DNA of 34,067 nt from Halococcus sediminicola (GTDB lineage: Archaea; Halobacteriota; Halobacteria; Halobacteriales; Halococcaceae), in the NCBI RefSeq assembly GCF_000755245.1, contig NZ_BBMP01000003.1, positions 1 through 34,067 of the forward strand, given 5' to 3'. Below the pieces are notes generated by a model, which was not told the DNA's origin, did no database searches, and was given only the letters and a program-made list of their open reading frames with translations. Position numbers and translations under genes: made by a program. Positions 5,181 through 31,122 of this stretch are shown in pieces. The stretch's first letter is position 1. Every line of letters begins with the position of its first letter.

Positions 5181-6806
5181 ATGGTTCAAATCGCCCATAT
5201 CAGCGACACTCACCTCGGAAATCGACAGTACGGCAGTGACGTGCGCCGGCAGGATTTCACCGACGCCTTCGCCGCCGCGGTCGAACGTGCGGTTGAGCGC
5301 GATGTCGACGCGATCATCCACACCGGTGATTTGTTCCATCGACGAACACCGCCGCTCCCGCAGGTCAACCAGTGTATCGGCGTGCTTCGGCGAGCACACG
5401 ACGCCGGCATCCCCTTTCTCGGAATTGTCGGAAACCACGACCGAAAGATGGACGATCAGTGGCTCGATTTGATGGCCCACACTGGGACTGCTAGCCGTCT
5501 CGATAGCTCGCCGACGATGATCGGCGAAGGCGACGAAGCTGTCGCGCTCTACGGCATCGACGCCGTGCCAAGCCCAGCGTGGGATTCCACGAACTTCGAA
5601 CTTGACAAGCCCGACAACGACGACGCTTACCGGCTCTTATGTATGCATCAGCTTCTCCATCCGCCTGTGCCGGAGATTATGGCCGACTATCCCGCTGACT
5701 CGGTGATCGAGCGCCTCAACATCGAGATTGACGGCCTCGCACTCGGTGATTATCACGAGGCCGAGAGTGCCGACGTCAATGGTGTGGATGTGTGGTACGC
5801 CGGTTCCACGGAGCGAGGTAGTGCAGGCGAGGAGGGCCCGCGCTCGATCACGATGCTCTCCGATTTCTCCGATCACACCATGTCGCGTAGCCACGTCGAC
5901 CTCGACACGAGAGACTTCCAGCCCATTCAGATAGCGTTTGAGGAGAACGACGGCTACGAACATGCCCGCTCCGTATTCGAGGAATACGACCTCACCGATG
6001 CCGTGGCGGTTGTGAACCTCACTGGTAAGCGTACCTCCCTCACTGCGAGCGACATTCACGAAATAGCTCTTGACCGCGGTGCGGCGGTCGCCCGTGTCGA
6101 CGACAACCGGGGACGTGAGCATCTCGATATCGGTGCTAACCCGACAACGGACGTCGAAGACCCTGACACCCTGATTGACAAGCGGCTCGCCAAAGCGGGT
6201 CTCAGCGAACCAGCCCTTGATGTCGATCAGATGGTTCGAGACGAGGCAACGTCGACGAACGCGCTTGACGACAACGCCGAACGACTCATTAGTGAAGCAC
6301 AGGATAAAGCGTTCGAGAGCGGCGACCCCGAGGCGGTACTGGGCGATGGTCCCGTTGAGGAACCCGAAGGGGGCGACGAACGAGTCGCCAATGCCAGGCC
6401 GGGTGGCGGCAACGAGTCTGACGACACCGAACCGACTGAGACAGCAGAGACACTCCGAGAGCAGGTCGAGACGGACGTCGAAGCCGCCGAGGCAGAGGCG
6501 GAGGGCAGTGACGTCGTAGCAAGCGAAGACGGCGAGAGCGGCGATAAGCCGGCCCTAACGGATATGAAAAAACCTGCGGGCGAATCTAAATCTGAAACGG
6601 ACACCGCCGAGTCTGTTAAAGAGAGGCCGCCGGAAGCTCGGGCTGAAACCGCACCGACGACCAACGAGAGCGAGACAGAGCAGACCGTCGAAACCGAAGC
6701 GACCGATGGCGGCAACGATCCTGAGGACGATACCGAGAGCGCCAGTGGTTCGACAAACCAGGCATCATTCGCTGACATCGGTGGTAGCAAGGAAGAATCT
6801 CAATGA
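5181..6806 (+). CDS. mre11: DNA double-strand break repair nuclease Mre11
   Basis: This is a 541-residue manganese-dependent nuclease that works with Rad50 to trim double-strand break ends. The calcineurin-like core shows DTH (residues 9-11), GDLFH (49-53), GNHD (84-87), MHQ with His156, and GDYH with His192, in the usual order. The capping domain follows to about residue 370. The last 150 or so residues are a low-complexity Glu/Asp/Thr/Ser tail with no fold, a common haloarchaeal addition. The start ATG 5181 gives MVQIAHISDTHLG, the normal N-terminus. It overlaps rad50 by four bases (ATGA), so the two subunits are translated together. Confidence 0.96.
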   Translation: MVQIAHISDTHLGNRQYGSDVRRQDFTDAFAAAVERAVERDVDAIIHTGDLFHRRTPPLPQVNQCIGVLRRAHDAGIPFLGIVGNHDRKMDDQWLDLMAHTGTASRLDSSPTMIGEGDEAVALYGIDAVPSPAWDSTNFELDKPDNDDAYRLLCMHQLLHPPVPEIMADYPADSVIERLNIEIDGLALGDYHEAESADVNGVDVWYAGSTERGSAGEEGPRSITMLSDFSDHTMSRSHVDLDTRDFQPIQIAFEENDGYEHARSVFEEYDLTDAVAVVNLTGKRTSLTASDIHEIALDRGAAVARVDDNRGREHLDIGANPTTDVEDPDTLIDKRLAKAGLSEPALDVDQMVRDEATSTNALDDNAERLISEAQDKAFESGDPEAVLGDGPVEEPEGGDERVANARPGGGNESDDTEPTETAETLREQVETDVEAAEAEAEGSDVVASEDGESGDKPALTDMKKPAGESKSETDTAESVKERPPEARAETAPTTNESETEQTVETEATDGGNDPEDDTESASGSTNQASFADIGGSKEESQ

Positions 6807-9613
6807 AGATTACTCGAATCCGACTACAGAACATCCGTAGTTACGAAGATCAGACCGTCGAATTTCCCGAGGGCACTATCTTGATCCACGGCGAGAACGG
6901 AGCCGGGAAAACGTCGCTTTTGATGGGTCTGTTCGGTGGGCTGTTCCTTTCCAATATCACGAACGTCGATGGCAACAACTTCAACGTAGGCGACCTCGTG
7001 CGCCGCGGCGAGGATAAGGGCCGCGTCGAGTTGGATTTCGTCGTTGACGACGACGAGTATAGCGTCGAATGGGAAATGCCCGGTCTTGATAGTGGAAGCG
7101 CATCGAAGGCCACACTTTCGTCGCCAGTTCTCTCAGATCCAGTTTCTGGCATCCGTGACGTCCAGCAGGAGGTGACGAATCTACTGGGCATGAACGAGGA
7201 CGATTTCTCCAGTTCGGCGTATGTTCAGCAGGGCGAGATTGATCGACTCATAGAAGCGAACGACCGTGGCGCGATGATCGACAGCCTGCTCGGTCTCGAC
7301 CAGATCGAGGAGTATATCGAACGCGCTAAAATGACCCGACGCGGGGCGAGACGTACCTACGAACGGTGCCAGGAACGTCGTCGCGGACAGGAGGCGAATC
7401 TCGACGACTACGATCACGACGAGGATGGTTATATCGAGGTAATACAGCGCCTCGAAGACGAGATCGAAGACAAGAAAGATCTCGCCGACCGTCATCAAAC
7501 CCATATTGATGAGACGCTCATCCCACGGCTCAACGAATATACCGACAAACTCGAGCACCACGAGACACTCTCCGAACGACTCTCAGATAAGCAAGACCAG
7601 ATCGAACAGGCAAAATCCGATCGGAAAGAGGCCCAGCTATCCAAGCAAGATAGCGAGGACACTATCACCGAGCACAAATCCGCAATCGGCGACCTCCGTG
7701 ACGAGGTCGGGATGCTCGACGACGAGGCGGAGTATGACCTTGATAGTCGAGAAAGCGCGGCGGATGCGCTCGACGCTGTTCAGGATGATCTGCTCGACGC
7801 TCAGCAGGAAAAGAATACGCTGGAAAACGAGTACAACAATGCCCGCGACGATCTCTTGGATGCGAAGTCGGACCTCGGCGACGTCAATGAGGATCTAAAG
7901 GAATCGCGGACCCAAGTCGAGGAGAAGGAATTAGCTATCGAGAATGCCGAAGGCGATGTCGAGAGTTACGAAGATGAACTCCGCGAACAACTTCGCAACC
8001 TTGCGGACACGCTTGAGGAATACGAGGTTGAGACAAACTTCAGAATGGATGAGCAGGGCGAAATCGACATCGGCGTGGCTACGGACGCGTTAATTCCGCT
8101 CGCCCGTGAGCGTATTCCCGAGCGCCGAGAGCAACTCAACGACGAGATTAACGAACTCACTGGCGAGATTGGACGCCTCGAAACTAAAGCCGAAACCCTC
8201 AACGACCGGATCGAGAAATTTCAAGAACTCGGCGAGGCTGGCGAGTGTCCCAAGTGTGGCCAGACCGTCGGGGAGGCCCATGTCGACGCGGAGATAGACG
8301 AGTTGGAGAACGAGCGGGATAACGTTGAGACGGAGATCACGTCGATCGAGGAAGACAAAAAGCAGCTTCAGCGCCGACACGGCCAACTCAGCGGTATTCG
8401 CAACACTGTAAATGATGTGATTGATTTCTATACCGACACGCTGGATGAGGCCCGCGAGCGCGTCGAAGACCTCCGCAGCGACCGTGAGGACATTACCCAG
8501 GAAATCGATGAGCTTGTAGCCGAAGAATCCGAACTACATGACCGGATCGGCGATCTCGAAACCACAGTTGAGGAACGCGAGGCGACCTTCGAGGAGGCTA
8601 AAACCCACATGGAGAGCATTGCTGACAGCCGCGAGACGATCAAAGATGCTGACGCGAAGTACGACGCCATCAATGACCGCCAGACCAAAATCGAACAGGA
8701 ACAGCAGGCCATCAGCCACGCCGACGACCGAATCGAGAACCTCGACGACCAACTCGACGCCTACTGGGACGAGAAAGAGAGCATCGAAGACGAACTCGGT
8801 GACCTCGACCCCGAGGAGCTTCGAGAACGAAAGGCTACCTACGAGGACGAAATCGAGAGCCATCGTGAGGACCGGGACGAGGCCCAAAGTCAGGTCGAAG
8901 ACCTCCGAGGCGAGGTGGCCACCGTAGAAACCACGCTGAATAACTTCCGCGATCTCCAGGAGAATATCGCCGAATTAGAACACCGCGAACGGTGGGCCGA
9001 TAGCGTTCGAGAGGACATCGAGCACACACTCTCAATCTACAACGAGGTCCAGTCGGATCTCCGCGAGACATACCTCGGGTATCTCAACGAATACACCAAC
9101 GATATCTTCAAAGACATTTATAAGAACAGTAGCTACCAGCAGGTCCGTATCACCGAAGAACACGACGAGACCTACGATACCTACGACTACGATATTCAGT
9201 TGCTCCGCGACGACGGCACGATGGAAGACCCCACCAACGCGAGCGGGGGCGAACGCGCAGTTGTGAATCTCGCGCTCCGAGCGGGTATCTATCGGTTGAT
9301 CGCCCAGATCCGTGGAGCAGGCGGAACACTTCCGCCGTTCATCCTCGACGAACCGACTACGTTCCTTGATGAGGGTCATGTTGGTCAGCTAGAACAGATG
9401 CTCGACACCGTCAAGGAGTGGGACGTCGCACAGGTGTTCGTGGTGAGTCACGACGAGAGTCTGATCCATGGCGCGGATCACGAATGTCTCGTCACGAAAG
9501 ACGAGGGCTCGACGAGTCAGATAGAGATGCAACTGGCTGGTCAAGACTACGAGGGCAGCGACGGGACCGAGGTTGCACTCTCGGATGGAGGATCGGGAGA
9601 TGGAAGCTCATGA
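6803..9613 (+). CDS. rad50: DNA double-strand break repair ATPase Rad50
   Basis: This is a 936-residue SMC-like ATPase that tethers DNA ends and controls Mre11. The Walker A motif GENGAGKTS is at residues 30-38. A long coiled coil (about 175-770) is interrupted by the zinc hook CPKC (Cys482, Cys485), which dimerises two Rad50 molecules through one zinc ion. The ABC signature SGGE is at 814-817 and Walker B FILDEP at 846-851, followed by the D-loop and the switch His in VVSHDESL. All functional parts are present and the length is typical for archaea. The tail beyond about 915 is Gly/Ser/Asp-rich. Confidence 0.97.
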   Translation: MKITRIRLQNIRSYEDQTVEFPEGTILIHGENGAGKTSLLMGLFGGLFLSNITNVDGNNFNVGDLVRRGEDKGRVELDFVVDDDEYSVEWEMPGLDSGSASKATLSSPVLSDPVSGIRDVQQEVTNLLGMNEDDFSSSAYVQQGEIDRLIEANDRGAMIDSLLGLDQIEEYIERAKMTRRGARRTYERCQERRRGQEANLDDYDHDEDGYIEVIQRLEDEIEDKKDLADRHQTHIDETLIPRLNEYTDKLEHHETLSERLSDKQDQIEQAKSDRKEAQLSKQDSEDTITEHKSAIGDLRDEVGMLDDEAEYDLDSRESAADALDAVQDDLLDAQQEKNTLENEYNNARDDLLDAKSDLGDVNEDLKESRTQVEEKELAIENAEGDVESYEDELREQLRNLADTLEEYEVETNFRMDEQGEIDIGVATDALIPLARERIPERREQLNDEINELTGEIGRLETKAETLNDRIEKFQELGEAGECPKCGQTVGEAHVDAEIDELENERDNVETEITSIEEDKKQLQRRHGQLSGIRNTVNDVIDFYTDTLDEARERVEDLRSDREDITQEIDELVAEESELHDRIGDLETTVEEREATFEEAKTHMESIADSRETIKDADAKYDAINDRQTKIEQEQQAISHADDRIENLDDQLDAYWDEKESIEDELGDLDPEELRERKATYEDEIESHREDRDEAQSQVEDLRGEVATVETTLNNFRDLQENIAELEHRERWADSVREDIEHTLSIYNEVQSDLRETYLGYLNEYTNDIFKDIYKNSSYQQVRITEEHDETYDTYDYDIQLLRDDGTMEDPTNASGGERAVVNLALRAGIYRLIAQIRGAGGTLPPFILDEPTTFLDEGHVGQLEQMLDTVKEWDVAQVFVVSHDESLIHGADHECLVTKDEGSTSQIEMQLAGQDYEGSDGTEVALSDGGSGDGSS

Positions 9614-9838
9614 AACACCGATCATCGTGCGTCACCGAGGAGATGAACTGATGCAAGAAGCAATCAACTGTGCGTTCCAGGCGGACGCCTGGTTATCCAG
9701 TTCGTCGACGAGATGGCCGGCGATCCATGATCGTACTCCACGTTGCTGTATATGTTCGGCGATACCGACCTCGCACACCGACAGACGGTCAGAGTGGCGA
9801 TTCGTGAGGCGACGGAAAGCGCCGATAATGGGGAATGA
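9600..9838 (+). pseudogene. Decayed or frameshifted small gene between rad50 and nurA
   Basis: The ATG at 9600 lies inside the end of rad50 and opens a frame whose first 25 or so residues look like normal coding (ETPIIVRHRGDELMQEAI). After that the same frame becomes Arg/Cys/Ser-rich, unlike its neighbours. The reading shifted by two bases then looks coding instead (RLVIQFVDEMAGDP, an in-frame TGA, then LYMFGDTDLAHRQTVRVAIREA) and ends at TGA 9836-9838. The simplest reading is a small operon gene broken by a frameshift plus a stop. The original frame happens to stay open to 9932, directly before nurA. I do not recognise the family. Confidence 0.35.
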
Positions 9839-9899
9839 TGGAGAACCCGCATGCAGCCCAGTCTCCGAGAATGGTGCGCGTGAGAGGTCCGCACCGAGA

Positions 9900-9905
9900 T
9901 TTAAG
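9900..9905 (+). promoter_or_regulatory. TATA-like box before nurA
   Basis: TTTAAG is centred about 30 bases before the nurA ATG at 9933, the distance expected for a leaderless haloarchaeal transcript. It suggests nurA-herA can be transcribed apart from mre11-rad50. Confidence 0.45.
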
Positions 9906-9932
9906 GCAGATGTGGATGTAATCGTTCGATAG

Positions 9933-11252
9933 ATGGATGCAGAAGCACTTTCGCTCGTCCGAGCGATATGCGGGCGAATCGACGAGAACGTCCCGCGGCA
10001 GGGCCGTGAGCAGTCCGAACACGCTCGCCGGCTGTTCGAACATCTCGATAAACCCGGTGGTGGTGTCGAATCGATCGGCGAACCGTGGTGTGCTCGGACG
10101 CCGATCGCCGACCTCGGGAACTGGAGCAACGACCCGTGGGATGGGCCGACATATGCCATCGATGCTTCGACGACGCAGGCGCTCGAATACACAAATGGGC
10201 TAATCATGGATACGGCCTACGCCAAACTCGGTGTCGGCGGTATCGACGTCAATCGCAGTGCCGAGCGCGCCGGCACGGTGAAAACCGTGGTCTACTACCA
10301 CGAAGGTGAATCAACCATCCGCAGCGAGAGATTTTCTGAAGCCGATGAAACCGAGGATGAAAGTCCGTTACAGGGCGAACTTGTTCCTTACGATGCCGAC
10401 GCGGACTCGGCGCAGAATCTCTCGAAGGCCGTCTCATCGGTCGCCCAATCGCTCGCTGAGGGTGAGCACGCTCGCCGAATGCTTGATGAAGTCGACGGCC
10501 CGCTCTTTCTGGATGGATCGCTCTACCCGCTTGGCGTGCTGTATTGGGTGTTGCTCGATGACGCCGGTAGTACCTCTCCCGCCGAATCATGGGGTCGGCC
10601 TCGTGAAATCGTAGAGAACTACATCGAGGTTGTGGAGACCCAATACGACCGCGGCTTTCCAGTTGTGGGAATCGTGAAAACCTCGACCACGGCCCAACTC
10701 GTTGATTCGCTGGAAGAGAAAATCCGCCAGCACGACGTTACGGACGAGAGCGGCCTGCGACCGGACGTTTCGTGGACCCGAGATCACCAGTATCTCGCCG
10801 AGGTGCTCCGGGGCGGGAGTCTCGACGAACTCACTTACACATCGTGGTTCGTAAGCACCGAACTCGCCGCCGGTCGATTCGGCGATACTGAGATACTTGA
10901 TCCCTTCGCACAGGACCTCCAGTTCGGTGAGCCCGGTGATTACCGGCGAGCGTTTTTCTACGTGCGATTGCCAAAGCAAGAGTTCGTTTTTCGGGTCGAG
11001 ACGCCGCTCCTCTTTATCCTCGACGACGAGGAAACCCGCGATGAGATCCAGAACAAAGCACTCAAAGAGATCGCCCGTCGCCGCGACGTACCGCAAGCTG
11101 TGACACGTGCCGACCGTATCGCTGGCATCTCGCAGGGTAATCGTAAGACGATTCGTGGGGTACTGAATTCGAGCGCACCAAGCAAGAACTACAATTGGGA
11201 CGGCCGGTGGAGCCAAGACGACATCAACGGAATGGAGCCCGACAATGAGTGA
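9933..11252 (+). CDS. nurA: NurA-domain 5'-3' nuclease
   Basis: This is a 439-residue nuclease of the NurA family, which in thermophilic archaea works with the HerA helicase to resect 5' strands at breaks opened by Mre11-Rad50. The first catalytic aspartate is Asp77 in TYAIDAST, and a second conserved acidic motif is LFLDGSLYP (Asp194). Later conserved segments include VVGIVKTS and a C-terminal NKALKEIARRRDVPQAVTRADRIAGIS. It is longer than thermophile NurA proteins (about 300-340), owing to acidic inserts typical of halophiles. It overlaps herA by 8 bases (11245-11252), so the two products are likely made in a fixed ratio. Confidence 0.88.
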   Translation: MDAEALSLVRAICGRIDENVPRQGREQSEHARRLFEHLDKPGGGVESIGEPWCARTPIADLGNWSNDPWDGPTYAIDASTTQALEYTNGLIMDTAYAKLGVGGIDVNRSAERAGTVKTVVYYHEGESTIRSERFSEADETEDESPLQGELVPYDADADSAQNLSKAVSSVAQSLAEGEHARRMLDEVDGPLFLDGSLYPLGVLYWVLLDDAGSTSPAESWGRPREIVENYIEVVETQYDRGFPVVGIVKTSTTAQLVDSLEEKIRQHDVTDESGLRPDVSWTRDHQYLAEVLRGGSLDELTYTSWFVSTELAAGRFGDTEILDPFAQDLQFGEPGDYRRAFFYVRLPKQEFVFRVETPLLFILDDEETRDEIQNKALKEIARRRDVPQAVTRADRIAGISQGNRKTIRGVLNSSAPSKNYNWDGRWSQDDINGMEPDNE

Positions 11253-13203
11253 TTTTACCCTCCCCGAAGACCGCGAGAGCAAGGATACAAACAAGGAGCA
11301 ACGTACCGAAAATGACGAGGTTAAGCAGGGAACGCTCAACGCTCCCGAAAGTGATGGCGATACCGCCGCTGAGAGCGGGAGCAAAGACGCCATCGGTGCA
11401 CGCTCGGTCGAGAGCGATATCACTCCACGCGCGGAGGACGAGATCGGTCATATCCTCGGTGGCAACAACATCCGAATCGGCCGCACCGAACATCTGGTCG
11501 AGGCGTACATCACTACCGATCGGCGCGAGGACGTGCAGGTAGGCGATTACGTACAAGTCCCCTATCCCGGACGAGGCGAGAGCCTGTTCGCGGCTGTTGA
11601 AGCACTCCGGTACGAACCTTATACGGACCTCGATGATACCTCCGACACTCACCACGACATCGTAAGCGAGGAGAGCGTCGACGAAAGCGAATATGTACTG
11701 GTAGCTGAGCTTGATCCAATCGCGTCAATCGAGATCGACGACACGGCCGCCGAGGCTGAGGAGAAATACGAGCGCGGGATCGTGAGTCGAATCCCGAAGC
11801 CCAACGCAGATGTGACACTTACCGAAGATGAGGCATTCCTTCGCACGGGGCTGAATATCCCACACTCTGGTGTGTTCTGTGGCCATCTCGCGGTCGCTGG
11901 TGATCGAAAAACCGTCGCTGACAAGCCGGTGCCATACTACATCGACAATCCGGGGAGTGTGCAGGATGGGGCGGGAGGTTTCGAGGTCGAGAGTGGCGAA
12001 CCTGCTATCTGGCGACACACGCTCGTCGCCGGCTCGACTGGGAAGGGGAAGACTCATTTCACCAAAAACCTGCTTCGCCAGTTTATCGGCGGGAAACGGT
12101 ATCCGGTCGGGAATGCGCACAAAGAACTGGGCGTGGTGATCTTCGATCCCGCGAACGAGTACTGGCAAATGCGCGAGAATAACGAGGATCTTCAGCCCGG
12201 CGGCGAGAAGGCAGCGCTCGGAGAGGAACTTCGGAATAGCTCGATTAATACGGGTGGCCTCGGCGATGATCTTCAAGTGTTCGCACCGGAAGTTGACGGC
12301 GCGAGCCCGGACGAGTCGGGCGAGCGCTACCCGTTCTCGATCCCGTTCTCGCTGGTGGCCGAGCATCCCCAGCTGTTGATGCCGTACAAAGCGACCGCGG
12401 TAACGCGAGGGGCTCTGGAGGACTGTCTCGACGATTACTTCGATCAGTTCCACGAACCTGAGAGGGTTGAGGGGGATGGCGAGCCGTCACTCGTTGACGA
12501 CGACGGCAATGTTCCTCAGTATGAGGACTTCATCCATTTCCTCAACCAGAACGATCACGAAGGTAGTATGCTCCGCGAGCGAAACGAGATTGGAAGCGGG
12601 ACGTGGGGCGCAGTGATGCGTCGGGCAAAACGCTCGGAGTTCGGCGCAGTGTTCGATGCCGATGCGAACCGACTCGACGAGGTGGCCCATCGTATGTTCG
12701 AACCAGGACAGGTGACGGTGATCCCAACGCGACATCTGACTAGTAAGCGCGAGAGTCTTGTCGTGCTGTCGGTACTCTCCTACATCATTGAGAACAAACT
12801 GAAAAGCGACGGGGCGGACCCAAACGTGAGCGAAACACCACTGATGGTCGGCGTCGACGAGGCCCACAACTACCTCTCCTCGCCGAGCAGCGACGACGTT
12901 CGCGGGCAGTACATCGTCAACCAAGCGAGAGATGCGGTTCGACAGGGACGAAAGGACCAACTCGGAATGATGATGATCACCCAGAACCCTGAGGACATCG
13001 ACGATGACATCCTGAAACAGACGAACACGAACGTCTTTCTCGGTCTTCGGGCGGAGGTGGTCCAGAGGGTGCCCTCAATCCCGCCGGAGTTTGCCCGCGA
13101 CATCCCCAAATTCGGGAAAGGACAGGCAGCCGTGAAAGCACCGGATGTGGAGGCAGTCGAAGTCACTGGTCTTTCAGAATGCTTGACCAAGCACGGAGAT
13201 TAG
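11245..13203 (+). CDS. herA: HerA-type DNA helicase / translocase ATPase
   Basis: This is a 652-residue FtsK/HerA superfamily ATPase that forms a hexamer and drives end resection with NurA. After a charged N-terminal tail (about 60 residues) comes a HAS-barrel-like region (GHILGGNNIRIGRTEHLVEAYI onward). Walker A is GSTGKGKT (263-270), followed by VVIFDPANEYW. Walker B is LMVGVDEAHNYL with Asp538 and Glu539. The segment MMITQNPEDIDDDILKQTNTNVFLGLR and a C-terminal GKGQAAVKAP are typical of HerA. Start ATG 11245 is set by the overlap with nurA. It closes the repair cluster; about 190 bases without a clear intact gene follow. Confidence 0.93.
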   Translation: MSDFTLPEDRESKDTNKEQRTENDEVKQGTLNAPESDGDTAAESGSKDAIGARSVESDITPRAEDEIGHILGGNNIRIGRTEHLVEAYITTDRREDVQVGDYVQVPYPGRGESLFAAVEALRYEPYTDLDDTSDTHHDIVSEESVDESEYVLVAELDPIASIEIDDTAAEAEEKYERGIVSRIPKPNADVTLTEDEAFLRTGLNIPHSGVFCGHLAVAGDRKTVADKPVPYYIDNPGSVQDGAGGFEVESGEPAIWRHTLVAGSTGKGKTHFTKNLLRQFIGGKRYPVGNAHKELGVVIFDPANEYWQMRENNEDLQPGGEKAALGEELRNSSINTGGLGDDLQVFAPEVDGASPDESGERYPFSIPFSLVAEHPQLLMPYKATAVTRGALEDCLDDYFDQFHEPERVEGDGEPSLVDDDGNVPQYEDFIHFLNQNDHEGSMLRERNEIGSGTWGAVMRRAKRSEFGAVFDADANRLDEVAHRMFEPGQVTVIPTRHLTSKRESLVVLSVLSYIIENKLKSDGADPNVSETPLMVGVDEAHNYLSSPSSDDVRGQYIVNQARDAVRQGRKDQLGMMMITQNPEDIDDDILKQTNTNVFLGLRAEVVQRVPSIPPEFARDIPKFGKGQAAVKAPDVEAVEVTGLSECLTKHGD

Positions 13204-24828: not shown

Positions 24829-24926
24829 GTAGACGACCTTCTGGCACTCCCGTTCACTATATCAGTTTGTGGACGAACGGCTCGCCTCATCGGTGGGTTC
24901 ATGCCGTTGATCTGTGATATGTGAGT

Positions 24927-26489
24927 ATGAACCGGCGGCTACTCGGTGTCATCTTCATCGCAGTCCTTCTCGTTTTCGCAGGCTGCTCTAGTGGTTCGTC
25001 CACTTCGACTCAGACAAGCACTGGTAGCCAATCAGACACCGCTGCCGGGTCCGTATCCGTCACCACGTCAACCAACGCAACAACCAACCTGCCGAACACC
25101 CCTCCGAATACGAGTGCTTCTCCACAGGCACGTTCGTCAGTCAATGGGACGTTCGAAGTCCACTCGATCAACGTCGGTCAGAGCGATTCGACGCTCATCA
25201 TCGGGCCGACCAACCAGACCATGCTGATCGATACGGGTGACTACCGCGATGACGGTGAGGTTGTGCTCGATTACCTCAAGAAACACAATATTGACCGTAT
25301 CGATTATCTCGTGACGTCGCACGTCGATGCCGACCACATCGGCGGCAACGCCGCTGTCATCAACTACTACGAGACTGAGGCCAACGGCGTCGGTGCGGTC
25401 TACGACCCCGGGATCGCCTCGAACTCCCAGACATACCAAGACTACCTCAACGCGATCGAGAAATACAACGTCACGCTGTATGAGGCTCGTGCTGGTGACG
25501 ATATCCCGTTCGAGGACGTTCAAACCCAGGTGTTGAACCCTCCTGAGAAGTACATCGACAGCGAACAGCGCAACGAAAACAGCATCGTGCTGCGACTCAC
25601 GTTCGGACAGACGAGGTTCATCCTGCCGGGCGATATCGAAGAGACGGGTGAGAGCCATCTCGTGGACGAATACGGCGCTCGGCTCAACTCCACGATATTG
25701 AAAGCCGCCCACCACGGGAGCGGTGGCAGTAGCACCAACTTGTTCCTCGATGCCGTCTCGCCGAAGGTGGCGCTCATATCGAGCGCCTACGATTCACAGT
25801 ACGGCCATCCACGGCCCGAGACGCTTCGTCGACTTGCCGACCACAATATCGAGACCTACTGGACGGCGACGCACGGGAATATCGTCCTCGCCAGCGATGG
25901 AACGACGATCGATATCGCCACACAACGACAGGCCCCGACCGATCCGATTTCGGTTCGGGATGGTGACCCGGTCGAACCCGGTACGGGTGGACCAGTCACC
26001 CATCGCGAGACCATTCAGGTTGCGGCAGGTTCGTCGCCACCCTCAGAGACTGAGACGAACACCCCTGCACCCACGACGACAGCACCGGCCCCATCCGGAA
26101 CAGGCACATCGGTAGCGACGGACGGGGGAACTGCAACCACCGCACCAGTTACTGGTGACAATTCGCTGGCTGTGAAGACAGTCCACGCCGACGCCGAGGG
26201 CGACGATACTGACAATCTCAACGACGAGTACGTCGTATTCACGAACACGGGGTCGCGTTCGCTCGATGTTTCCGGGTGGACGGTCAGCGATGCCAGCTCG
26301 CATACCTACACCATTCCATCCGGGACTACTCTCGAGGCCGGCGAGACGCTTACCCTCCACACTGGCGAGGGGACGGACGACGGGAGCAACCTGTACTGGG
26401 GGTCTGGCAGTGCGATCTGGAACAACGGGGGCGATACGATCACGATTACAAACGCGCAGGGCGAACAGGTCCTCAAGGAGGAGTACTGA
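24927..26489 (+). CDS. ComEC-like metallo-beta-lactamase lipoprotein with lamin-tail domain
   Basis: This 520-residue lipoprotein has a signal with lipobox FAGC (Cys20), then a Ser/Thr-rich spacer. The metallo-beta-lactamase domain (about 75-330) resembles the soluble part of ComEC/Rec2: INVGQSDS (normally NVGQGDS), LIDTG, the metal motif HVDADHIGG (His132-His137), PGDIEE and AAHHGSGGSS. A Thr/Pro-rich linker follows, then a C-terminal lamin-tail domain (about 415-518) with NDEYVVFTNTG, LDVSGWTVSD and NNGGDTITI. Homologues are probably extracellular nucleases or phosphodiesterases; this is inference. ATG 24927 is preferred over GTG 24921. Its stop overlaps the DUF3006 gene (TGATG). Confidence 0.88.
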   Translation: MNRRLLGVIFIAVLLVFAGCSSGSSTSTQTSTGSQSDTAAGSVSVTTSTNATTNLPNTPPNTSASPQARSSVNGTFEVHSINVGQSDSTLIIGPTNQTMLIDTGDYRDDGEVVLDYLKKHNIDRIDYLVTSHVDADHIGGNAAVINYYETEANGVGAVYDPGIASNSQTYQDYLNAIEKYNVTLYEARAGDDIPFEDVQTQVLNPPEKYIDSEQRNENSIVLRLTFGQTRFILPGDIEETGESHLVDEYGARLNSTILKAAHHGSGGSSTNLFLDAVSPKVALISSAYDSQYGHPRPETLRRLADHNIETYWTATHGNIVLASDGTTIDIATQRQAPTDPISVRDGDPVEPGTGGPVTHRETIQVAAGSSPPSETETNTPAPTTTAPAPSGTGTSVATDGGTATTAPVTGDNSLAVKTVHADAEGDDTDNLNDEYVVFTNTGSRSLDVSGWTVSDASSHTYTIPSGTTLEAGETLTLHTGEGTDDGSNLYWGSGSAIWNNGGDTITITNAQGEQVLKEEY

Positions 26490-26773
26490 TGGCGACCGGA
26501 GAGTACCGCGGAGTACTGGACCGCTTCGAGGACGACCTCGCAGTGGTGCTGCTCGAACGCGATGGGGACACGATAGGGGATATCGCACTCCCTCGAGAGC
26601 AACTGCCCGAAGACGGTCGTCATCAGGACGCACTCTTCGCGATCGAGATGGAGGGCGAGACGGTCCAAACCATCTCATACTGCCCAGAAGAAACACGCAA
26701 GCAGGCAGAGCAGGCTCAGTCACGATTCGACCGCCTCTCGCAGCGGCCGCCGGGAAGTGACGAAGAGAATTGA
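26489..26773 (+). CDS. DUF3006 domain protein
   Basis: This 94-residue protein starts at ATG 26489, sharing one base with the preceding stop. GVLDRFEDDLAVVLLE and the later LPREQLPEDGRHQDALF match the small beta-barrel-like DUF3006 family. DUF3006 genes are commonly found beside ComEC-like metallo-beta-lactamase genes, as here, so a shared role is likely, though the biochemical function is unknown. The open frame upstream to 26276 is a shadow of the lipoprotein gene. Confidence 0.87.
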   Translation: MATGEYRGVLDRFEDDLAVVLLERDGDTIGDIALPREQLPEDGRHQDALFAIEMEGETVQTISYCPEETRKQAEQAQSRFDRLSQRPPGSDEEN

Positions 26774-26928
26774 TCGCACAAGCCGGATTGGCCAGAGACG
26801 AAGGGCTTCGTCAGGGAATCAGCCTCGGTAGCAGGTAGTCGGAGTTCTGGAGGGCGGGGTGAAGCTTTTCAATAGATGGAGCTTTGGACTGGAGTCAGGA
26901 AGGGTCCTTTTGGACACTTGATTAGCCA

Positions 26929-26947
26929 ACAGGCTATCGTAGCCTGT
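26929..26947. repeat. Perfect inverted repeat, 8-bp stem
   Basis: ACAGGCTA and TAGCCTGT are separated by TCG, about 55 bases before the RHH start codon. It could be an operator, a terminator stem of an upstream transcript, or the edge of a small element. Nothing here decides between them. Confidence 0.5.
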
Positions 26948-26976
26948 AGTACGACTGGAAGTAGACAAAGGTCTTT

Positions 26977-26994
26977 AGGTATTCTACAGGTATT
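26977..26994 (+). promoter_or_regulatory. Direct repeat AGGTATT, likely operator overlapping the RHH promoter
   Basis: AGGTATT occurs at 26977-26983 and again at 26988-26994, eleven bases apart (one helical turn), just before ATG 27002. The complement AATACCT occurs at 27221-27227 before queD. Ribbon-helix-helix proteins bind such short repeats as dimers of dimers, so autoregulation plus control of queD is a reasonable inference. Confidence 0.45.
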
Positions 26995-27001
26995 ATCTTC
27001 C

Positions 27002-27184
27002 ATGCCAAAGATTAGCGTTGATGTTCCACAGGAGTTGCTTGATGATCTCGATGAGCATGTCGGAGAAGGGGGAAAGTTCGTGAACCGGAGTGATGCAATC
27101 CGCGCGTCTATGCGCAAAACGCTCGATATTTTAGACGATATTGATAGTCGACATGGACGACTCGAACGCGAAGAGCAACCTTGA
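27002..27184 (+). CDS. Ribbon-helix-helix (CopG-type) transcriptional regulator
   Basis: This 60-residue protein starts at ATG 27002. The N-terminal strand PKISVDVP, then helix A (QELLDDLDEHV), the turn GEGGKFVNRSD and helix B (AIRASMRKTLDIL) are the classic MetJ/Arc/CopG ribbon-helix-helix. The strand contacts DNA bases as a dimer. It precedes queD by 47 bases on the same strand, and repeated heptamers lie before both genes. The likely role is to regulate itself and the preQ0 operon; the ligand, if any, is unknown. The longer in-frame extension upstream is rejected as non-homologous. Confidence 0.88.
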   Translation: MPKISVDVPQELLDDLDEHVGEGGKFVNRSDAIRASMRKTLDILDDIDSRHGRLEREEQP

Positions 27185-27200
27185 TTCCGATACTCCACCA

Positions 27201-27227
27201 TCTATAAGCACTGCCGAAATAATACCT
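27201..27227 (+). promoter_or_regulatory. queD promoter with TATA box and AATACCT operator-like site
   Basis: TCTATAAG (27201-27208) is centred about 28 bases before ATG 27232, fitting a leaderless transcript. AATACCT (27221-27227), the complement of the heptamer repeated before the RHH gene, lies between the TATA box and the start, where a bound repressor would block transcription. Confidence 0.45.
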
Positions 27228-27231
27228 GGGT

Positions 27232-27699
27232 ATGTCAGGAGTTGCCTCAAGAGAGCATGAGGATCGCCCATCATCAGTCAGTGATGAGGAACGAGTACTC
27301 TCGATTGGAGCTGACCGACCGATTCGCATCAGCGCCGGCCATCGATTGCTGCATCATGAGGGGAAATGCAGTCGGCCTCATGGACACAACTACGAAATCG
27401 CTATCACGGTTACTGGACCACTCCGAGAAGAGGGGTGGGTCGTCGATAAAGGGATTGTGACCGATCTCATCGAAGACTGGGATCATCGATTTCTTCTTGA
27501 GCGTGGTGACCCACTCATTGATGCGTTCGAGCAAAGCGGCGACAGTGATGCTACTATCGTTCTCGACCATCCACCTACGGCTGAAGTGATGGGTGTTGTT
27601 CTCGAAAACAGGTTACGTGACCAACTGCCTGCATCAGTCAGTGAGGTGTCTGTTGAGGTGTGTGAAACAAACGAACTGCAGACTTATCCCTCGCGATAG
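27232..27699 (+). CDS. queD: 6-carboxytetrahydropterin synthase QueD
   Basis: This 155-residue enzyme of the 6-pyruvoyl-tetrahydropterin synthase family converts dihydroneopterin triphosphate to 6-carboxy-tetrahydropterin, the first committed step to preQ0. The zinc-binding histidines are in ISAGHRLLHHEGKCSRPHGHNY, which also holds the catalytic Cys of the CxxxHGH motif. WVVDKGIVTDLIEDWDHRFLL matches the family's (M)VxDF..L motif region. The N-terminus is about 20 residues longer than most members. It is the first gene of queD-queE-queC, followed after 1 base by queE. Confidence 0.93.
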   Translation: MSGVASREHEDRPSSVSDEERVLSIGADRPIRISAGHRLLHHEGKCSRPHGHNYEIAITVTGPLREEGWVVDKGIVTDLIEDWDHRFLLERGDPLIDAFEQSGDSDATIVLDHPPTAEVMGVVLENRLRDQLPASVSEVSVEVCETNELQTYPSR

Positions 27700-27700
27700 T

Positions 27701-28480
27701 ATGCCGGCCAGATCAGAAGTTGATGTCAGGGAGGGGCCACCGGACGGATCCGGAACAGAGAGTCTCCCAATCAACGAACTCTTCTACTCGATGCAAGGGG
27801 AGGGCAGACTCGCGGGTGTTCCCTCAGTTTTTGTTCGTACAAGTGGCTGTAATCTTCGTTGTTGGTTTTGCGATTCTTATCATACGTCTTGGGAACCCAC
27901 ACACGCATGGATGAGTACCACGGAAATCATCGATGAAGTTTCCACTCACGCCAAAGCGGACCACGTCGTTGTTACCGGTGGTGAACCTCTCATTCACGAG
28001 GAAACAACGAATCTCATCGACAGCCTCAGCAACGACGGATACCACATAACGGTCGAGACGAACGGAACAGTATACCCAGATGCGGCAATTGATCTCGCAA
28101 GCATCAGTCCCAAACTCGCCAGTAGTACACCTACGGCAGCGAAAGACCCGAAGGGCGATGGAGAATGGAGTGGGAAACACGAAGAACTACGGATTGACAT
28201 GACGGCACTGACGCGCTTGATTGAGAACTACTCATTCCAACTCAAATTTGTTGTCACTTCTCGGGAAGATATCGAGGAAGTCAATGACATCATCGAGTGT
28301 ACTCGTGAGCAAACAAGTGCTCGTATACGAAATCAGGACATCTTGCTTATGCCAGAAGGGCAGACCGAAGTCGAAATCGCACAAAAGCGAGCACAGGTTG
28401 CCGAGCTCGCGATGGAACATGGATATCGGTACACTCCACGCCTGCACGTGAACCTCTGGAACGATGAGGTGGGACGATGA
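27701..28480 (+). CDS. queE: 7-carboxy-7-deazaguanine synthase QueE (radical SAM)
   Basis: This 259-residue radical SAM enzyme turns 6-carboxy-tetrahydropterin into 7-carboxy-7-deazaguanine. The iron-sulfur motif CNLRCWFC uses Cys50, Cys54 and Cys57 (CX3CX2C). The substrate-binding INELFYSMQGEGRLAGVPSVF lies just before it and VVTGGEPL after it. All are diagnostic of QueE. The start ATG 27701 is one base after the queD stop; the longer frame from 27593 is within queD and rejected. The C-terminal HVNLWNDE is typical of archaeal members. Confidence 0.94.
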   Translation: MPARSEVDVREGPPDGSGTESLPINELFYSMQGEGRLAGVPSVFVRTSGCNLRCWFCDSYHTSWEPTHAWMSTTEIIDEVSTHAKADHVVVTGGEPLIHEETTNLIDSLSNDGYHITVETNGTVYPDAAIDLASISPKLASSTPTAAKDPKGDGEWSGKHEELRIDMTALTRLIENYSFQLKFVVTSREDIEEVNDIIECTREQTSARIRNQDILLMPEGQTEVEIAQKRAQVAELAMEHGYRYTPRLHVNLWNDEVGR

Positions 28481-28563
28481 GATGGAGAACAACGCCTCGG
28501 CGGAATCACGTATCATCTTAACCAATCATCGTATGATAAGCAAATAATAAACACATCCCGACA

Positions 28564-28883
28564 ATGAACGACGATAATTCCAAAGAGACGAAAGCATTCG
28601 TTTTGCTATCGGGTGGTATCGACTCAGCAGTTTGCTTGAAGAAAGCATCTGAAGAGCATGAGAGCGTCGCAGCCGTCCATATCGACTATGGCCAGCAAAC
28701 CGAGGACATCGAACGCGCCAACGCAGAGAAGCAGGCGGATGGTCTCGGTATTCCTCTCTATACTTGCAATTACCGAGCGGTATTCAGAGAATTTGCTGAA
28801 GGAACCATTGAGAACAAAGAATACGATCGCGAACGCACGACCGACGAAGAACACAGCGTTGGATACGTTCCGCAACGAAACCT
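28564..28883 (+). pseudogene. queC: 7-cyano-7-deazaguanine synthase QueC, N-terminal part, cut by IS
   Basis: This holds the first 106 codons of QueC, the ATP-dependent enzyme that makes preQ0 from 7-carboxy-7-deazaguanine and ammonia. The PP-loop LLSGGIDSAV (SGGxDS at 16-21) and IDYGQQ are intact. The reading enters YVPQRN, which should continue into a helix, but an insertion sequence starts at 28884. The frame from 28884 runs only seven more codons of IS DNA and stops at 28905. The rest of the gene resumes at 30328 in the matching phase, giving a 229-residue protein if rejoined. Confidence 0.95.
28879..28883 (+). repeat. Left target-site duplication of the ISH3-type element
   Basis: AACCT here is repeated exactly at 30323-30327, immediately after the right inverted repeat. 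Removing the IS and one copy restores the queC frame. Confidence 0.92.
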
Positions 28884-30322
28884 CGGTAGTTCCCAATCGA
28901 GTTGAGAGCCGGAGCTAAAGCGTCGGTCTGATTGGAGCAGATGTCTGGTTGAGTGAATGTGCTACAGCTACCCCAACCAGACGGGTTCCTTTCGGCGTGG
29001 GACGTCAAAGGTGTAGCGGCGGATGTGATCGGAGAGCTTCCCTTGCCAGGGATCGAGGGCTCGCCCCTCGATCCTGGCGACATCTGGTCCGTCGTTATCC
29101 TTGCCAGCACCAATCAGAGCTCCGTTCGAGAGGTCTGCGCCGAGAACCACGAGGCTCCCTGCGACGATACCGTCTTCGAGTGGCTCCATACACTTGATCG
29201 AGGCTGGCTCGAGTTCGCCGCTAACCTCCTGTTCATGCAGTTGGCCATGACGATCCTCGACCGCTCGGGGTCGAGGATCGTCTCCATCGATTTCGTCGAT
29301 AACCCCTATCATGGCACCTACAGCGACGAGATAGGCGAACTTTGTCGAATGAGCCCTAAAGACGGTACCACGACCTGCCACCGATACTGCACCGCCTACC
29401 TCGTCTCGAACGGCAAACCGATCACGCTCGCGATGACGTACGTCCGCAGCGACGAGAAGCAGGCCGACGCGGTTGAGCGCGTCCTCGACCGCGTCGAGGC
29501 CTATCCCTTCGAAATCGAGCTGTTGTTGGCTGATTCCGGCTTCTACAACGAGCGCGTCATTCGCCGCTCGCAAGAGATCGCCGCGACTGTCGTGCCGGTC
29601 GCCGAGAAAGGCGACCGGCTCGAAGAGAAGCTTGCAACGCACAAATCGTACATGACGACCTACCGGATGTACAAGGATAGCGAGCGGGAACTGCGCTTCC
29701 CGCTCGCGGTTTCAGTCTCGTATCAGAACGGCGATCGCGGCAAGCACGGTGAAGTGGTTCGAGGGTACGCGGCGTGCGATCTGGGCGATCGCACGCCCAC
29801 ACAGGTCGAACACTGCTACCGAAAGCGGTCAGCGATCGAATCCAGCTATCGGCTGTTTCGAAGTGCACGAGCGGTAACGTCGACGCAAGATCCGATCGTA
29901 CGGTTTGCGTTCGTGGTGGTGAGCTTCCTGCTGGAGAACCTGTGGTTGGTGCTACGATGGGCGGTCGTCGCCCGCCCACGTCGGGGCGGGCGCGACCTGC
30001 CTGAGGAGTTCACGTTCTCGGTGTTCTGTGACTGGATTCGACACGCGTTGGAAGAAGAGTTGGAGCGGCGGTGGAAAATCAAGATGAATGGCGTCGGCGT
30101 GCCGGACGCGTACACCTCGGCCGCGGGCTGAGGCCAGCCCGCGGCCTCGGGAGTGCCCTTCGTGAGCAGCAGCTGTCGGCTGGGATCTTGGGAGAAGCCG
30201 GTGCAGGAAGCTTCTGAAACGCCGCCACGCCTTTGAGGTCTGGTGAACCGGTTCACCACGACGTTCACCGCAACAGTCCACCGGTTCAGAGGATTTGCTG
30301 AGATCTCAGTTGGGAACTACCG
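28884..30322 (+). mobile_element. ISH3-family insertion sequence, 1439 bp, inside queC
   Basis: The ends are terminal inverted repeats starting CGGTAGTTCCCAA (28884) and ending TTGGGAACTACCG (30322), 13 bases perfect with partial match beyond. A 5-bp duplication AACCT flanks it. One transposase gene fills the interior. The size, 5-bp duplication and transposase motifs fit the ISH3 family of haloarchaea. The element looks complete and recent, because ends, duplication and host gene halves are undamaged. Confidence 0.93.
28953..30131 (+). CDS. ISH3-family DDE transposase
   Basis: This transposase has about 392 residues and starts at GTG 28953 (a GTG two codons on is also possible). The DDE residues fall in IVSIDFVDNPYHG, ELLLADSGFYN and HCYRKRSAIESSYRLF, the last being the Y-(2)-R-(3)-E-(6)-K/R-type signature of IS4-related enzymes. 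The C-terminal FAFVVVSFLLENLWLVLRW and RPRRGGRDL are typical of ISH3 transposases. No frameshift is seen, so it is probably functional. It is transcribed in the same direction as queC. Confidence 0.9.
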   Translation: MNVLQLPQPDGFLSAWDVKGVAADVIGELPLPGIEGSPLDPGDIWSVVILASTNQSSVREVCAENHEAPCDDTVFEWLHTLDRGWLEFAANLLFMQLAMTILDRSGSRIVSIDFVDNPYHGTYSDEIGELCRMSPKDGTTTCHRYCTAYLVSNGKPITLAMTYVRSDEKQADAVERVLDRVEAYPFEIELLLADSGFYNERVIRRSQEIAATVVPVAEKGDRLEEKLATHKSYMTTYRMYKDSERELRFPLAVSVSYQNGDRGKHGEVVRGYAACDLGDRTPTQVEHCYRKRSAIESSYRLFRSARAVTSTQDPIVRFAFVVVSFLLENLWLVLRWAVVARPRRGGRDLPEEFTFSVFCDWIRHALEEELERRWKIKMNGVGVPDAYTSAAG

Positions 30323-30327
30323 AACCT
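30323..30327 (+). repeat. Right target-site duplication of the ISH3-type element
   Basis: AACCT directly follows the right inverted repeat and equals 28879-28883. Confidence 0.92.
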
Positions 30328-30697
30328 CCATTTCCTCACGACTGCTGCTGCGGTCGCTGAGCACAATTCCGAAGCTCGTGACGATATTCTTCTCTATCAT
30401 GGTGCTCAACAGAATGATGGAGAAAACTACCCTGACTGTCGACCAACGTTTCTCGAAGCCGCGGAGAATGCGATCAATCGATCGACCGACCAACACGCGA
30501 TTCGAGTTAATACACCGATCATCACTCACTCCAAGCCGGAGGTACTGCAACTCGGCGAACGTTTGGAAGTCAACTGGGAGACCACATTCAGTTGCTACAA
30601 TGACGAGAACGGTGACCCCTGTGGAGAATGTCCTGCATGTATCGAGCGAGAGGATGCATTTGAAGAGGCGGGAATCTCTGATCCACTTAGTTACTAA
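30328..30697 (+). pseudogene. queC: QueC C-terminal part, separated by the IS
   Basis: Read in the phase that continues codon 107, this gives HFLTTAAAVAEHN, ILLYHGAQQND and NYPDCRPTFLEAAENAI, then the zinc-binding cysteines FSCYNDENGDPCGECPACIER, ending SDPLSY and TAA 30695-30697. These are standard QueC C-terminal features. It has no start of its own and is not expected to work alone. The DNA shows no further damage, so precise excision of the IS would restore the gene. Confidence 0.94.
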
Positions 30698-30700
30698 CGA

Positions 30701-30835
30701 TTACGCTCTATGGAATACATAGGGTCCAGCGTTGGGGATATGGATCAGTCGGCCATCTGCTAGTGAATCAATGGCTTCCAAATCACGGCTCCGCCGTTCG
30801 GCGTAATATCGGACCTCAATATGACCGTTGGGCAC
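30701..30835 (-). CDS. Small hypothetical protein convergent with queC
   Basis: GTG 30835 to TAA 30703-30701 encodes 44 residues reading PNGHIEVRYYAERRSRDLEA, then IDSLADGRLIHIPNAGPYVF. An in-frame TGA three codons upstream fixes GTG as the start. The composition and the beta-helix-beta look are those of a genuine small haloarchaeal protein. It ends 3 bases from the queC stop on the other strand. No family name recognised. Confidence 0.5.
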   Translation of the reverse strand: MPNGHIEVRYYAERRSRDLEAIDSLADGRLIHIPNAGPYVFHRA

Positions 30836-31122
30836 TTGATGTCAGAGAAGACATCTCGTAGCGGTTTCGGATGCTCTATTGAAAATGGAGGACGGCAGCA
30901 GGATTATTCCGTAATGGCTTGAGTCGTGCGCATAGTAGTGCACACCGTGCCTGCGGTCAGCTCTGACAGAGGGTGTCATGGATCGGTTAACATAGCTTCT
31001 CGCCAGATCGGTCAGAAGGTGGGCGAGTTTAATTCGGAGGGAGGGCGATGAGAAGGTAGCTCGCACTCGACGAATCCGTCTCAGTCACAACTGTTATTCG
31101 CGTCTCGAAGAGAAGCTTGGGT
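30836..31122. other. Intergenic region before the initiator tRNA
   Basis: I see no coding frame with protein-like composition and no RNA structure here. The last 40 bases must contain the tRNA promoter. Confidence 0.4.

Follow-up and report, generated by a model that had tools for sequence, protein, structure and literature searches.

Introduction

Archaeosine is present in almost all archaeal tRNAs. In bacteria, the genes for queuosine and yhhQ are controlled by preQ1 riboswitches, and the sections of the same report considered here note archaeal COG1738/YhhQ homologues and their likely role in preQ0 salvage, and name no archaeal regulator (PMC5372724). Deletion of queE or queC in H. volcanii leads to loss of archaeosine in defined medium, and salvage of preQ0 from rich medium has been proposed (PMC3017900). 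The queD, arcS and tgtA genes respond to perchlorate (PMC12175516). We found no archaeal regulator of preQ0 genes described in the open literature that we searched.

Here we describe a small ribbon-helix-helix (RHH) protein encoded next to preQ0 genes in a contig of Halococcus sediminicola, of which the whole stretch that we analyzed, 34,067 nucleotides, is referred to as the window. The preQ1 riboswitches act at the same pathway step as the system that we propose, precursor synthesis and uptake, but they are bacterial RNA elements, whereas our proposal involves a protein and a DNA site; an Rfam search for preQ1 riboswitches across positions 26000–31000 of the window returned no match at the gathering score. 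Among RHH proteins, CdrS, a regulator of ftsZ2 in haloarchaea (PMC7439475, PMC8406309), is likewise a small single-domain archaeal protein encoded beside the gene that it regulates (in our case, a predicted target), but the neighbor of CdrS is ftsZ2, whereas that of our protein is a preQ0 gene. We rejected identity with CdrS on the basis of a score of 28 bits against the NF058555 model, which has an equivalog cut-off of 100. The closest solved structures by sequence were those of NikR, with similarity confined to the RHH domain (2bj1, E 0.0075). Nickel-responsive NikR has a C-terminal metal-sensing domain, which our ~60-residue protein lacks, and we rejected this identity as well, because the matches ended with the DNA-binding domain and included only the first ~40 residues.

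Results

A conserved RHH gene accompanies preQ0 genes

The RHH gene of the window (27002–27184, plus strand) encodes a 60-amino-acid product that scored just above the cut-off for PF01402 (RHH_1/CopG; 21.5 versus 20.5 bits) and is conserved across the class and beyond. Almost every genome of class Halobacteria has the gene, with homologues in 387 of 391 genomes at E ≤ 1e-3 and, at E ≤ 1e-10, in 74 of 80 genomes. A phylum-wide search also recovered the protein from several families outside the class, at 55–74% identity, and 24 positions were invariant in a 31-member alignment. A model of the monomer had high-confidence helices at residues 10–17 and 29–50, with the strand not formed in the monomer, and a Foldseek search with this model produced no useful match. 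Viral contigs yielded no RHH homologue.

In most families of Halobacteria, the RHH gene lies directly 5′ of QPTR/YhhQ, the preQ0/queuosine-precursor transporter gene, often between tatC and rlmE; the product of this usual neighbor belongs to the YhhQ/QPTR family by its matches to Pfam Vut_1, to the NCBIfam 'queuosine precursor transporter' and, above cut-off, to TIGR00697. Other arrangements also occur, with the RHH gene heading queD-queE-queC in Halococcus, an additional RHH copy a few kb 3′ of queDE in some Halorubrum, RHH divergent from queD in L184, and the order RHH-queC-queE in L217. In family f4, which going by its named relatives we suggest is Natrialbaceae, the gene sits between tatC and rlmE without QPTR, and it was present in all f4 genomes searched. 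Outside Halobacteria, RHH heads queC, queD, queE or QPTR genes in 11 of the 20 loci that we read, and in family f13 it stands alone.

The RHH gene is commoner than QueD (74 versus 56 of 80 genomes), and nearly all genomes with RHH and without QueD have QPTR. Five of nine Halococcus genomes have both RHH and an adjoining queD, and the other four have neither, having kept QPTR and TGT. One genome (G014) has no RHH, QueD, QPTR or TGT, although part of these absences may represent a single loss, because RHH and QPTR share an operon in other members of its genus.

We also observed additional copies of the gene. Several Halorubrum-type genomes had two to six RHH matches (L126, L132, L045, L046, L062 and similar), and some of these extra copies had no que or QPTR gene nearby in the stretch read, yet had a strong promoter site resembling GATATTC-N6-GAATAC. 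At L160 (G131:C15, 1542–3288), a further RHH copy precedes two divergent genes, one QueD-like (34%) and one QueE-like (31%), which may constitute a separate 7-deazaguanine cluster.

The que genes of the window

Three que genes follow the RHH gene of the window on the plus strand: queD (27232–27699; PF01242, 9e-21), queE (27701–28480; a radical SAM protein with QueE models as its best NCBIfam matches, though below cut-off) and queC, which is interrupted. The 5′ part of queC (28564–28883, positions 1–98 of PF06508) is separated from the 3′ part (30323–30697, positions 97–209) by an ISH3-family insertion element (28884–30322, plus strand) with terminal inverted repeats, AACCT at both flanks, and a transposase gene at 28953–30131 (plus strand; NF033541, 2e-118). 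The only other QueC-type copy that we found in the assembly (L031; G000:C13:5104-5517) is without the N-terminal third and lies directly against a winged-helix (HTH_33/HTH_32) ORF that we took to be a transposase. Because one queC is interrupted and the other copy truncated, the strain may depend on preQ0 salvage by its QPTR (G000:C22:415706).

Elsewhere in the window, four consecutive genes at 5181–13203 encode a calcineurin-like phosphoesterase, an AAA (SMC-like) ATPase of 936 amino acids, NurA and a HerA-like helicase, a set that looks like one for DNA-end processing, and 24921–26770 encodes a secreted-looking protein that combines a metallo-beta-lactamase fold with a lamin tail domain, and after it a DUF3006 protein.

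A candidate operator at the RHH and queD promoters

The sequence-only reading of this locus had pointed to two copies of AGGTATT, 11 bases apart, before the RHH gene, with the complement between the queD TATA box and start. We found the heptamer as described, at 26977–26983 and 26988–26994 on the plus strand and at 27221–27227 on the minus strand, the last of these between TATAAG and the queD ATG at 27232. The window had no further copy, and all three were within 251 bases, at two promoters, although the count was weak when taken alone, as at least three copies occurred in 8 of 100 shuffles. A 10-mer, CAGGTATTAT / ATAATACCTG, was identical at the two promoters (26987–26996 and 27219–27228).

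Viewed across genomes, the heptamer is one half of a candidate operator, TATTC-N6-(G/T)AATA, with half-sites 11 bp apart, which lies between roughly −24 and −7 relative to the ATG, immediately 3′ of the TATA box. The columns of RHH-QPTR promoters run in the order TTTAAG, TATTC-N6-(G/T)AATA, start codon, and the same columns precede queD. At the RHH promoter of the window, the TATA-like element read from the sequence is TTTAGG (26974–26979, plus strand; −28 to −23), which matches the TTTAAG consensus of RHH-QPTR promoters, and the candidate operator is GTATTC-TACAGG-TATTAT (26979–26996, plus strand), which covers most of both heptamers and, at 19.9 bits, was the top matrix site of the window, with the next separate site at 12.3 bits. 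At the queD promoter, the TATA-like element TATAAG (27203–27208, plus strand), likewise read from the sequence, agrees in position with other queD promoters, and the candidate operator (27208–27225, plus strand) has the −24 position seen in other genomes, with a score of 10.3 bits that ranked about sixth in the window. This site is weaker than that of the RHH promoter because its first half is degenerate, with only the second half-site, TAATAC, conserved. Among Halococcus loci, the half-site appears to co-vary at the two promoters, being GCTATTA/TAATAGC in L004 and L125 as against GGTATTA/TAATACC in the window, and this co-variation may reflect one evolutionary event.

The sequence-only reading had also noted an 8-bp inverted repeat further upstream. 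The repeat (26929–26947) is present and perfect, with a 3-nucleotide loop (ACAGGCTA/TAGCCTGT) and no T run after it. It is not part of the candidate operator, because something similar was seen only in the closest relative (L002) and not in L003, L004 or L010.

The site marks synthesis and uptake promoters

Conservation at both promoters in related loci had been set beforehand as the check on the motif, and it was borne out. We built a matrix from 51 RHH-QPTR promoters only, and applied it to queD promoters that it had not seen, at a threshold of 1% of shuffles. Among the 46 queD promoters whose fetched locus did not contain the RHH gene, 29 exceeded the threshold, with ~0.5 expected, and 17 fell under it; the queD starts were picked by a rule independent of the operator (nearest modal position), which may be wrong in some genomes. 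No control promoter exceeded the threshold, whether of rlmE (0/46), queE (0/29) or operon-internal QPTR (0/27). We rejected tgtA as a regulon member, as 0 of 30 TGT-family promoters did so.

The position of the site was also constrained, with 31 of the 36 queD sites that scored 9 or more starting at exactly −24, which was also the commonest start in RHH-QPTR promoters (39 sites). A minority of sites scored best further upstream, at −46 to −51. The strict palindrome GTATTC-N6-GAATAC occurred 75 times in 391 genomes, compared with twice for a reversed control pattern, and of these strict sites 33 lay immediately 5′ of queD and 2 lay 5′ of RHH. All 33 queD cases were in family f4, among its 45 sites, where RHH is unlinked to queD. 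One strict site, GTATTCAAGCGCGAATAC, recurred in six genomes and was not counted as regulatory because it apparently lies inside a coding sequence at L218, the only such locus read.

The promoter of the RHH gene itself mostly had no site in family f4 (3/39) and had none in family f13 (0/9). Outside Halobacteria, 9 of 11 RHH promoters linked to que or QPTR genes exceeded the 1% threshold. Unlinked QPTR promoters had no clear site in Halococcus, and in family f4 a few had strong sites, differently placed. As for a pathway-specific regulon, a common site is present at synthesis and uptake promoters and absent from controls. Separately, the RHH promoters of L320–L322 and L326–L330, outside Halobacteria, appear to have three or more consecutive half-sites at ~11-bp steps, an arrangement that suggests higher-order binding.

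Discussion

Our analysis brought together a conserved protein, the variety of arrangements in which its gene is linked to preQ0 genes, and a common site at a fixed position in both linked and unlinked promoters. From these comparisons of sequence, we infer that the RHH protein would bind the candidate operator and that the effect would be repression. We think it likely that the 60-amino-acid protein is a dedicated, autoregulating repressor of preQ0 supply throughout the phylum of the haloarchaea. It is very probably a dedicated switch, because it adjoins the genes for preQ0 synthesis or import, which share a DNA site at their start. The sequence-only reading had named it as a candidate dedicated regulator of preQ0/archaeosine synthesis, a proposal supported by the unlinked queD promoters, the other classes and the site-free controls, and one that we refine in that the predicted regulon comprises preQ0 uptake (QPTR) together with synthesis and leaves out tgtA, which has no site. 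Weighing against our explanation are the unlinked queD promoters that fell under the threshold, the RHH promoters of families f4 and f13 with few sites or none, the unlinked QPTR promoters of Halococcus, the half-degenerate queD site of the window, and the genomes with RHH and no QueD, although nearly all of these have QPTR.

RHH dimers probably bind the two half-sites of TATTC-N6-(G/T)AATA, which are one helical turn apart, and we envisage two RHH units side by side because this spacing suits them. Bound protein would prevent the transcription machinery from assembling, both at the RHH promoter, which is followed by QPTR or que genes, and at queD. We favor repression by obstruction because most sites fall in the interval from the TATA box to the start codon. 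The signal might be preQ0 or another pathway intermediate; this is a guess, with preQ0 the natural candidate effector.

The protein might bind the same site and activate, or act as a dual regulator. The sequence cannot tell the direction of regulation, and the sites at −46 to −51 would suit this explanation, but most sites are placed so that a protein bound there should stand in the way of initiation, and we consider activation unlikely. Alternatively, the common site could be real but bound by another small DNA-binding protein, with the RHH gene only a frequent neighbor, as might be imagined from family f4, in which strong queD sites are kept while the RHH gene has neither a site nor a linked target. 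Against this explanation, which we regard as quite improbable, RHH is still found in all f4 genomes searched, it has remained beside pathway genes despite numerous rearrangements and in different classes, and outside the class its promoter has the site where it is linked to the pathway (9/11) and not where it is unlinked (0/9). It is very improbable that TATTC-N6-GAATA belongs to the ordinary core promoter or start site of haloarchaeal genes, because although it overlaps the core promoter and is flanked on one side by a normal TATA box (TTTAAG), none of the rlmE and tgtA promoters of the same organisms exceeded the threshold and its strict form is scarce across the 391 genomes. Chance repetition of the heptamer, which the shuffled counts would allow, is refuted by conservation of the site at fixed positions across families and classes.

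A dedicated preQ0 repressor would give this small and highly conserved RHH protein a probable role and would place salvage through QPTR and synthesis under one control. With a named protein, a defined candidate operator and a short list of targets, the proposal is directly testable in Haloferax or Halobacterium, and the motif provides a means of finding further members of the regulon. More tentatively, and with somewhat more doubt than confidence, we suggest that an ancient, phylum-wide RHH repressor of 60 residues, with an operator of its own, may coordinate preQ0 synthesis with salvage on the supply side of archaeosine, taking the role that the preQ1 riboswitch has in bacteria and sensing the precursor without a separate ligand domain.
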